Assembly: GCF_003691585.1 (NCBI RefSeq)
Contig: NZ_CP033169.1
Location: forward strand, 868,001 to 932,000
Direction of reading: 5' to 3'
Source: Biomaibacter acetigenes
GTDB taxonomy: Bacteria > Bacillota > Thermosediminibacteria > Thermosediminibacterales > Tepidanaerobacteraceae
Length of the DNA stretch: 64,000 nt
Each line of letters opens with the position of its first letter. The stretch's first letter is position 1. The position numbers were made by a program, and so were the translations under genes. Positions 23,448-56,779 of this stretch are shown here, piece after piece. The notes under the pieces were generated by a model. The model had not been told where the DNA came from, searched no databases, and was given only the letters and a program-made list of their open reading frames with translations.

Positions 23448-23476
23448 TTGCATTTTTTAACAAATGAGTGTATAAT
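23448..23476 (+). promoter_or_regulatory. Sigma-A promoter for the leader RNA and zinc-ribbon gene
   Basis: TTGCAT (23448-23453), 17-base spacer, consensus TATAAT (23471-23476). The predicted start, about 23483, falls at the first base of the structured leader. Confidence 0.78.
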
Positions 23477-23483
23477 GATATAT

Positions 23484-23608
23484 GGCATAACTTAGGTCTG
23501 TGGTTGAAAGTCGATGCCAGGGCCGTAGGCAAAGCGACTCCCAGGAGTGGCGTTCCACTCGCAGTGTGCGGCGTTTTTGGGGAAAACCAGGTCAGCTAAG
23601 GAAATGCC
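23484..23608 (+). ncRNA. Candidate structured leader RNA with three-way junction, unidentified
   Basis: The 5' and 3' ends pair through three collinear helices: GGCAT 23484-23488/ATGCC 23604-23608, CTTAG 23491-23495/CTAAG 23596-23600, TGGTT 23501-23505/AACCA 23585-23589. Inside are two arms: AGTCG 23509-23513/CGACT 23535-23539 continuing with TGCC 23515-23518/GGCA 23528-23531, and GAGTGG 23545-23550/CCACTC 23555-23560 with loop CGTT. GTTTT/AAAAC (23573-23587) could compete with the third closing helix, which would give a switch. It matches no riboswitch class I know. It ends 32 bases before the zinc-ribbon start codon. Confidence 0.6.
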
Positions 23609-23640
23609 GATAAAATCATTTAAAGTGAGGGGTTTTTTTA

Positions 23641-23946
23641 ATGGCATTTCAGGACAAAACATTGGTATGTAAAGAGTGTGGGAACGAGTTTGTTTTCACC
23701 GCCGGCGAGCAGGAATTCTACGCGGAAAAGGGCTTTGAGAATGAGCCTACCCGCTGCAAAGCCTGCAGAGACGCCCGCAAGAGGAGAATGAGCGACGGCG
23801 GTTCCAGAAGGCAGTCAAGACAGATGTATGATGCTGTTTGCGCCGACTGCGGAGCACCCACACAGGTTCCCTTTAAGCCCAGAAACGATAGACCCGTATA
23901 CTGCAGCGCTTGCTACCAGAACCATCGCATGGCCCAGAACGCTTAA
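23641..23946 (+). CDS. Zinc-ribbon protein (zf-trcl / CxxC-x17-CxxC family)
   Basis: A 101-residue basic protein with two zinc ribbons: VCKECGNEF with RCKACRDARKRR, and VCADCGAPTQVPF with YCSACYQNH. This family is widespread in anaerobic Firmicutes and of unknown function; nucleic-acid binding is suggested by the basic linker (residues about 45-60). ATG 23641 follows GTGAGGGG by eight bases. It has its own promoter and a long structured leader, so it is probably regulated apart from the flagellar genes. Confidence 0.85.
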   Translation: MAFQDKTLVCKECGNEFVFTAGEQEFYAEKGFENEPTRCKACRDARKRRMSDGGSRRQSRQMYDAVCADCGAPTQVPFKPRNDRPVYCSACYQNHRMAQNA

Positions 23947-29992: not shown

Positions 29993-31963
29993 TTACACTT
30001 TGAACTTGTTTACCAATGATGTTAGGTTTTCCGCCAGTTTTGCCAGTTCCTGAGCTGATGCGGCGATGTTTTCCATGGTGGCTGTCTGTTCTTCCGAGGA
30101 AGCAGAAACTTCTTCGGTGCCGGCGGCGGTCTCCTGGGCTATGCTTGAGATACTCTGGACCATTTCTACAATGTGTTCCACATTTTGATATTGTGATGAA
30201 AGTTCAGTTGAGATTTCTCTGGAGCGCAGGGCTGCCGCATCGATTCGTGCCATCAATCCGTCTATTCTCTCATTGATTTCTTTGATGAGGACCTGGCCTT
30301 CATTCACCTGCTTATTGCTTTCCGCCATGGCATTTACTGCGATCCTGCTACTGTTTTGAATCAACTTGACAATTTCGGCTATCTGCTTGGCGGCTTCTCC
30401 TGACTGCTCTGCCAGTTTTCTTACTTCATCCGCCACCACTGCAAAACCGCGGCCGTGCTCACCGGCCCGGGCTGCTTCTATGGAAGCATTCAGCGCCAGA
30501 AGATTGGTCTGATCTACAATATCACGAATGATTCCCGAAATTTTACCGATTTCCGTGACTTTAGAATCCAGTTCCTGCATTATTGCATTTGTCTTGTCCA
30601 CCGTTGATTTTATGGTATTCATCTTTTCCGTAGCAATCTCTATCTTTTGCCGGCTTTCTTTCGCGTTTTGAGCCATTTCTTCGGCTGAAGAGGCTGTTGA
30701 ATGGGCATTTTCCTCAACCTTACCGTTGGAAACCACCAGTTTGTCCACTAAACTTGAGATTTCGGCAAGTTTTCTGGCCTGTTCGTTAGCCCCTGCCGCT
30801 ATCTGCTCTATGGCTCCTGCTACCTGCTGAGTAGACTGGTTGCTCTGCTCGGCACCGGCGGCCAGTTCTTCGGCTGAAGCAGACATGTTTTCTGCTGCCT
30901 TAATGACCTCTTTCACAAGCTCTTTTAGACTTGATACCATTGAATTAAAAGAGGATGCCAGTATTCCAATTTCTGTTGAATCCTTTATATTGATGCTTTC
31001 CATTAGGTTTCCGGATGCGACGCTGTTGGAAACTTTCACCATGCGGCTTATGGGTTTTGCAATCAAATTTCCTATAAAAAGACCCATGCCCAGGCAAAGA
31101 AGCGCTATTACGATGGCTGTTATGTATATGGTCCCTGTTACCCTGTTTACATGGGCAAATGCCTCACTAACCGGTTGCTGCACGAATATACCCCATCCTA
31201 TGGATTTTTGCCTTCCGTATGCCACGAATCTTTTGGCCCCACCTATTTCATATGTTGTAAATCCGGATTTTCCGGACAGTGCCGCCTTGACAAAATCATA
31301 TTTTGAACGATTTTCGCGGGATTTTACAATCTTATAATCCTTATGGGCTATAATATACCCGTCGCTGTCGGTTATGTACGCATATCCTTCGTTGCCGACT
31401 TTCATATTCATGACTATTCTTGTTAAACTCACCAGGGAAACGTCCGCACTGATGACGCCCACAGGCTGACCGGTGTCGGATAATATGGTGTTGGATATGG
31501 ATATGATGGAGTTGCCAGACATCTGGTCTACTTTGACTTTGGTCACATAGAGGCCTTTTGCATCCATAGCCCCGGTGTACCATGGTTCACTTTTTACATC
31601 ATAGTTATCGGGAAAAGAGGCAAACGGTACAGCAAAAACTTTACCTCTGGTATCTACCACATATATCCGCAGTATCTGGGGATTTTGCTGGGTCATGTCA
31701 TAAAGAAACGGGGTAATCTGGTCCTGGTCCATGGTCCTCACAACTTTAGTGGTGGCCAGGAAGGTCACAAGATTTTTATTTTGCTCTATAAAAAGGTCTA
31801 TATTGTCATTTAGATTATCTACGATAATACTGGCTTTTTCCCGGACTTCCTGCATCATGGAGTCCTTGACGAGATAGTTGATAATGACCCCCATAACAAC
31901 GAGAGGAATCAGAGCCATTGCGGTGAGATATACCGCAAGACGTGTTTTTAAACTTGTTTTCAA
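29993..31963 (-). CDS. Methyl-accepting chemotaxis protein (dCache sensor)
   Basis: Membrane chemoreceptor of 656 residues. TM1 about residues 10-32 ([15 protein letters not shown]), extracellular double-Cache sensor about 35-280 ([25 protein letters not shown]), TM2 about 282-304, HAMP about 303-358, then the cytoplasmic signalling hairpin with tip [19 protein letters not shown] and [20 protein letters not shown]. The ligand is unknown; Cache domains usually bind amino acids or carboxylates. Its message starts with a c-di-GMP-I riboswitch and terminator, linking receptor level to c-di-GMP. Confidence 0.95.
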
Positions 31964-32025: not shown

Positions 32026-32117
32026 TATAGTTGCAACCTGGCAGCCATAGCATGTTCAATGCCGTAGGCCCATGGCTTTGCGCCCGCCCCTTTCGGGGAG
32101 TTTGCCAAAAAACTATA
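32026..32117 (-). promoter_or_regulatory. Cyclic di-GMP-I (GEMM-I) riboswitch aptamer
   Basis: Minus strand, in order: closing strand TATAGTT (32117-32111), GGCAAAC, a CCCC-GAAA-GGGG tetraloop hairpin, GGGCGCAAAGCC, GGGCCTACGG, then GGCTGCCAGGTTGC and closing strand AACTATA (32032-32026). These are the conserved elements of the c-di-GMP-I class, including the GAAA tetraloop and its receptor arm. The terminator that follows directly indicates transcriptional control. I cannot tell from sequence alone whether ligand turns the gene on or off. Confidence 0.93.
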
Positions 32118-56541: not shown

Positions 56542-56649
56542 AATGGTATCAGAAAAATTTAAAGTAATATCGATATAAAAATTTAGCGACAAAGGGAATT
56601 TTATTAATATTATAGAATATATATTATTAATGTACTGTCACAAAATTTA

Positions 56650-56735
56650 ATTATCCTCCGAGCCCATGAAACCCCTCGGGCTTTATGGGCCGAAAGGGTA
56701 TGGGGAGTGATCCTCATGCCTGCCAGTGTGCAAAG
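56650..56735 (+). promoter_or_regulatory. Moco/Tuco-type riboswitch aptamer (candidate)
   Basis: TTATCCTCCGAGCCCAT, GGGCTTTATGGGCCGAAAGG and GTATGGGGAGTGATCC with CATGCCTGCC, in order, resemble the Moco RNA motif, which senses molybdenum or tungsten pterin cofactor. GCCCAT/ATGGGC forms a helix and CTCC/GGAG a second. Context supports it: the operon downstream encodes a tungsten-pterin-type enzyme and a MoaD. Recognition is from memory of the consensus, without a covariance search. Confidence 0.68.
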
Positions 56736-56736
56736 G

Positions 56737-56779
56737 AGTTCATTTGCTTTTAGACTTATAAAAGCAGATGAACTTTTTT
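56737..56779 (+). terminator. Intrinsic terminator after the pterin-sensing leader
   Basis: AGTTCATTTGCTTTT (56737-56751) pairs over 15 bp with AAAAGCAGATGAACT (56760-56774), one G-U pair, followed by TTTTTT. It lies between the aptamer and the first gene, so the operon requires read-through. Confidence 0.9.

Follow-up and report, generated by a model that had tools for sequence, protein, structure and literature searches.

A compact form of raiA (ModT) RNA as a candidate translational leader of the zf_Tbcl zinc-finger gene in Thermosediminibacterales-type bacteria

What is the structured RNA that lies between a promoter and a small zinc-finger gene in Biomaibacter acetigenes, and does it act on that gene or independently of it? 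The locus is in a 64,000 nt stretch of DNA (contig NZ_CP033169.1, 868,001 to 932,000; the window, by whose numbering positions are given here), and all of its features described below are on the + strand. The promoter (TTGCAT, 17 nt, TATAAT; 23448..23476), from which transcription is expected to start near 23483, was taken for a consensus promoter in a sequence-only reading of this DNA. The −10 is indeed a perfect TATAAT (23471-23476), the spacing is 17 nt and, in relatives with the same RNA, the position is constant and the sequence near-identical. ‘Consensus’ is nevertheless too strong, as the −35 matches at 3 of 6 bases, which is why a simple promoter scan did not list it. The gene, zf_Tbcl (23641..23946), encodes 101 aa with two treble-clef zinc fingers (PF13451, PF23477 / TIGR04272). 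Its ribosome-binding box, GUGAGGGG at 23625..23632, is part of a conserved AAAG(U/C)GAGGG(G), found ahead of zf_Tbcl whether the raiA leader is compact or full-length.

An Rfam search at the gathering threshold reported nothing at the leader. By E-value, a search of the leader stretch gave a single match, to RF03072 (raiA RNA) at 23487-23604 with 47.1 bits and E 1.1e-10, less than half of the RF03072 gathering score of 101.3 bits. The alignment spans the whole model (positions 1-209) and takes in the conserved raiA core; the low score goes with missing domains and not with divergence of the core. The R1 model gives 137.6 bits for the element at 23484..23608. A model from 18 compact sequences alone detected full-length raiA RNAs in another 35 genomes from the phylum sample, scoring them at up to 63 bits versus 119-140 bits for compact ones. 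That the leader RNA is raiA RNA is near-certain. From the Rfam match, the order and phylum survey and the reciprocal model search together, it is assigned as a compact, previously unannotated form of raiA (ModT) RNA, homologous to the full-length one and distinct from it.

The suggestion that no known class has this form was thus mistaken, and a new RNA class was rejected on the match at E ~1e-10 and the reciprocal search. The score under the Rfam gathering threshold and the zinc-finger gene downstream are what might still point to a riboswitch with no relation to known RNAs, perhaps a zinc-sensing one; the raiA core aligned from end to end and the full-length raiA RNAs that precede the same gene, in the same place, in sister families make this highly improbable. 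Nothing supports the earlier guess of metal sensing. Given the base composition, the folding energies are unremarkable (element z = −0.85, leader z = −1.28, neither significant) and were dropped as evidence for structure, so the structured-RNA case rests on homology and conservation. On those grounds the earlier proposal of a structured RNA ahead of a small two-zinc-finger gene was borne out.

The helices described from the letters, a three-part closing stem and two inner hairpins making a three-way junction, are present and conserved in the compact RNA (~125 nt, 23484..23608; known from 19 order members). Its outer P1 helix, GGCAU/AUGCC (23484..23488 / 23604-23608), has 90 of 90 cells paired across 18 distinct sequences, two of them as U-G. 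The 5′ strands of P1a (CUUAG/CUAAG), P1b (CUG/CAG) and P1c (UGGUU/AACCA) lie at 23491..23505 and their partners at 23596-23600, 23593-23595 and 23585-23589. P3 (AGUCG/CGACU and GCC/GGC; 23509..23539) is paired in all 18, with one G-C changed to G-U, and has a conserved internal loop, AAAG (23531-23534). P1, P3 and P4 have standard pairs throughout in 18/18, and since the pairs of P1 and P3 are almost invariant they give little covariation evidence. In P4 (CCCAG/UUGGG; 23540-23544 / 23577-23581, span 23540..23581) both strands change together, from CCCAG with UUGGG or CUGGG to CCCUC/GAGGG in the sister family and CCCAC/GUGGG in full-length RNAs, the register having been set for maximal pairing so that the count leans towards P4. 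The P5 hairpin (GAGUGG/CCACUC; 23545-23550 / 23555-23560) is retained in the compact sequences with a differing stem sequence. Two cores, of 20 nt and 14 nt, are invariant in the 18 distinct sequences (34 nt in all). These sequences come from two families, between which the zf_Tbcl proteins share only ~75% identity.

Two pairings are additional to the helices seen earlier, a pseudoknot and a pairing of the RNA 3′ end with the start codon. The pseudoknot, pk-1, joins GCCGUA in the P3 loop (23522..23527) to UGCGGC (23567..23572). It is 4-6 bp long, and its core 4 bp are kept in 18/18 compact sequences. At the fifth position 14 of the 18 have U-G, U-A or C-G and four have a mismatch, a partial covariation. 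The MAFFT columns for pk-1 and P4 are off by one between the two compact families, and pairs were therefore counted segment by segment, with the pk-1 3′ half of two sequences (L014 and L015) placed by hand. An alternative GTTTT/AAAAC pairing, proposed earlier as one that would open the third closing helix, does exist in the window. Only 6 of 18 distinct relatives have it in full, so that it is probably not functional, and it was rejected as not conserved.

The published raiA RNA has helices P1-P8, a 7 bp pk-1 between the P3 loop and the pk-loop, and a 2 bp pk-2 between the pk-loop and J4-1c; its cryo-EM variants have either a short P6 hairpin (variant 1, 32% of sequences) or a P6-P8 domain (variant 2, 68%) (PMC11751092). 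With RF03072 the compact form shares the invariant GGUCUGUGGUUGAAAGUCGA and CCAGGUCAGCUAAG cores, P1a-c, P3a/b with its A-rich internal loop, P4, P5 and pk-1, so that a P1-P3-P4-P5-pk-1 core is common to it and both variants. Its pk-1 occupies the position of the cryo-EM one, though in C. acetobutylicum raiA RNA it is longer, at 7 bp. The differences are of size (~118 nt versus ~165-308) and of parts. There is no pk-2: J4-1c is shortened, and neither its CA nor the pk-loop CAUGG, both of which can be made out in most of the 32 full-length loci, occurs in any of the 18 compact sequences. (In full-length loci pk-2 covaries, being usually G-C but A-U in L075 and U-A in L088.) The GUAAG/CUGAGCAUGG base of P5 is also absent, and since in most compact sequences pk-1 is followed by 3-5 nt and then by the 3′ strand of P4, there is no room for P6 or P6-P8. 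With pk-2, the P5 base and P6 all missing, the compact form fits neither published variant and, judged by its sequence, is a third, smaller raiA variant.

This form, at 113-121 nt, is the sole raiA RNA in 19 of 22 genomes of the order; two of the three without it are incomplete assemblies. None of the 22 reaches the RF03072 gathering score, and as the RNA is sub-threshold in every order genome searched, Rfam-based annotation misses it. A genome search gave no second raiA RNA in the host, and compact copies beside a full-length one were looked for and not found, there being a single raiA RNA per genome. Other raiA RNAs in a 398-genome sample of the phylum are ~165-308 nt, bar one partial match. 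A pattern scan of about 85,000 species, for exact core ends with a 52-82 nt gap, returned 13 loci, all of them order sequences (Thermosediminibacter, Tepidanaerobacter, Fervidicola, Thermovorax and metagenome genomes); neither this exact-core scan nor the 398 phylum genomes gave a compact form outside the order. In same-class sister families (L004, L006, L008) the corresponding place, between a similar promoter and a zf_Tbcl gene, is taken by a full-length raiA RNA, and because of this the compact form most likely arose through internal loss at this locus.

Traces of such RNAs were also seen by eye; neither the RF03072 nor the compact covariance model detected them. An order member, G014, has ~110 nt upstream of zf_Tbcl (L064) the same promoter, an outer stem GGCAUUCUAA/UUAGGAAUGCC and a P3-like UCGAUGCUUUGCGUAGGCAAAG, with the raiA core gone; it is likely what decay has left of a raiA RNA, and the genome, which is nearly complete, has no further copy. 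In G060 (L044), ~100 nt before zf_Tbcl, a 3′ end with the sequence AAAACCAGGUCGGCUAAG is very like the raiA 3′ core, and the 5′ core is missing. Such decay raises the question of whether the whole order has lost raiA function, leaving a relic whose structure is merely that of a stable 5′ untranslated region. The disappearance of pk-2, the P5 base and P6-P8 from the order would agree with this, as would G014, where further loss was tolerated with promoter and outer stem retained. However, 34 core nucleotides invariant across families with such diverged zf_Tbcl proteins, and P4 and pk-1 pairs maintained through changes, are not what a relic leads one to expect, and we consider it an unlikely explanation.

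Position relative to the gene is the next consideration. The RNA ends 40-50 nt before the zf_Tbcl ATG, on the same strand, in 26 of 27 relatives with a compact or full-length raiA RNA (for the compact RNA, a fixed 45 nt). Over nine families, zf_Tbcl is found at this distance downstream of 19/19 compact and 17/32 full-length loci examined. A terminator between RNA and gene was looked for in these 36 loci (19 compact, 17 full-length) and found in none, versus 7 of 15 loci not followed by zf_Tbcl that have one after the RNA, an approximate comparison as the stretches searched were 70 nt and 110 nt, respectively.

The usual neighbours of raiA RNA are comFC (74%) and the raiA gene (66%) (PMC11706538). 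A literature search, the reach of which did not extend to the main synteny paper, found no paper linking raiA RNA to the zf_Tbcl family. In one family (f37) zf_Tbcl stands between the RNA and hpf, the gene of the raiA protein, and in several others hpf comes next after the RNA. Here this hibernation factor gene (PF02482), found directly after the RNA or zf_Tbcl in other families, is 29 kb upstream of the RNA, at G000:C1:862478-862747, 5.3 kb before the window start. [Two further RNAs in the window are above the Rfam threshold: a c-di-GMP-I riboswitch (32029-32116, − strand), directly upstream of a 656-aa ORF (29993-31963, − strand) resembling a methyl-accepting chemotaxis protein, and a Moco/molybdenum riboswitch (56644-56754, + strand).] Those zf_Tbcl genes that are without raiA RNA (L042, L054, L063, L066) often seem to have a ~100-nt leader behind a promoter-like sequence, which suggests that leader regulation may be general for the family; at L063 (2071-2410) the neighbour of the zf_Tbcl gene is a cold-shock gene that matches the cspA thermoregulator below threshold.

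How might the RNA act on the gene? The 3′ strand of outer P1, GAAAUGCCG (23601..23609), has its complement where zf_Tbcl starts, in UGGCAUUUC (23642-23650), a stretch that takes in the second and third bases of the AUG. This anti-start helix can be 8-9 bp in 19/19 compact loci; in full-length zf_Tbcl leaders it is 9 bp in L004, of the same class, and 4-7 bp in others. The minimum-energy fold of the leader uses it, so modelled, the compact RNA apparently can hide the start signal of zf_Tbcl. In compact leaders, no more than ~4 kcal/mol separates the state with P1 closed from the one with the start sequestered (−4.1 to +2.2 at 37 C, as computed without pk-1 and tertiary contacts); by the same calculation the closed state is favoured by ~4 kcal/mol in full-length L004 and L006 and by ~2 kcal/mol in five of eight sequences of the sister family. 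Between the two compact families a single base of the P1 3′ strand differs (GAAAUGCC, GGAAUGCC), and a synonymous codon differs to match it (UUU, UUC); on the RNA side the cause is a length change of one base, and this match is accordingly counted as one event. In the mechanism proposed, the ribosome-binding site and AUG would be free when outer P1 is closed, with GGCAU paired to AUGCC. On its opening, the freed 3′ strand would pair with the start region and mask the U and G of the AUG, lowering translation. A ligand, a protein, temperature or the zinc-finger protein itself are candidates for shifting the balance. Translational riboswitches that sequester the start codon or Shine Dalgarno sequence likewise have a closing-helix 3′ strand that pairs with either its 5′ strand or the start-codon region; they differ in that compact raiA is not known to have a ligand and in that its parent family was shown to act in trans.

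The choice left by the earlier description, of a regulatory or a stand-alone RNA, is thus between evidence of two kinds: position and start-codon pairing favour action in cis, and the published work on full-length raiA favours action in trans. That the compact core was kept as a cis-acting translational 5′ leader of zf_Tbcl is put forward as the best reading, though tentatively and at slightly under an even chance. Besides the RF03072 homology, reciprocal recovery and invariant core, it accounts for the fixed spacing to the gene with no intervening terminator and for an anti-start helix available in every compact locus at nearly the same energy as P1 pairing. Several points weigh on the other side. 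Trans-complementation in C. difficile and C. acetobutylicum has been taken to exclude a cis function of full-length raiA (PMC11706538), and most full-length zf_Tbcl leaders are without the anti-start helix. Half of that helix is fixed by the conserved protein N-terminus, MAFQDK, and the order members are related, so that 19/19 represents few independent events. The energies leave out pk-1 and tertiary contacts, and the majority of sister-family sequences computed favour the closed state.

The main competitor is a smaller trans-acting ModT, processed from the zf_Tbcl leader transcript and acting on the growth transition as in C. difficile. In functional terms, ModT is defined as an abundant RNA that acts in trans on sporulation and the growth transition. 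The synteny would then reflect co-expression, zf_Tbcl being possibly an RNA-binding partner, and the start-codon pairing would be incidental. For ModT/raiA, action in trans has been published, along with great abundance and the ability of distant orthologs to stand in for it (PMC11706538); a strong −10 promoter is directly upstream here, and retention of invariant core nucleotides in genomes with no other raiA RNA is as expected if the core function persists. But neither a terminator nor an obvious processing site separates RNA from gene, a start-codon distance constant over nine families is needless for a stand-alone RNA, and the domains lost include P8, P6 and pk-2. We regard it as a real possibility, if a somewhat doubtful one. 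The cis leader that we prefer and a trans role could coexist, and the authors of the full-length study leave open an origin of ModT from an ancient riboswitch (PMC11706538).

While the raiA RNA family itself is known, its compact variant is new. The raiA/ModT RNA is widespread, and among clostridial RNAs it is one of the most abundant and most intricate. A natural version of about half the size suggests that pk-2 and P6-P8 can be dispensed with and that P1, P3 and pk-1 cannot; its smallness also suits it to ligand screens, structure work and a reporter test. Part of the ground for dismissing a cis role was that raiA RNA is often hundreds of nt from the next gene or in the opposite orientation (PMC11477304); by contrast, in nine bacterial families it is the fixed leader of one gene family, and the consistent leader position of the compact variant may well revive the question of cis regulation. 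A broader proposition, which is rather unlikely, is that raiA RNA is or was a cis translational switch of zf_Tbcl. The compact form would then be its minimal natural version, a three-way junction and pk-1 with a start-codon-sequestering platform, and the clostridial trans-acting ModT would be a derived or additional use of this fold.
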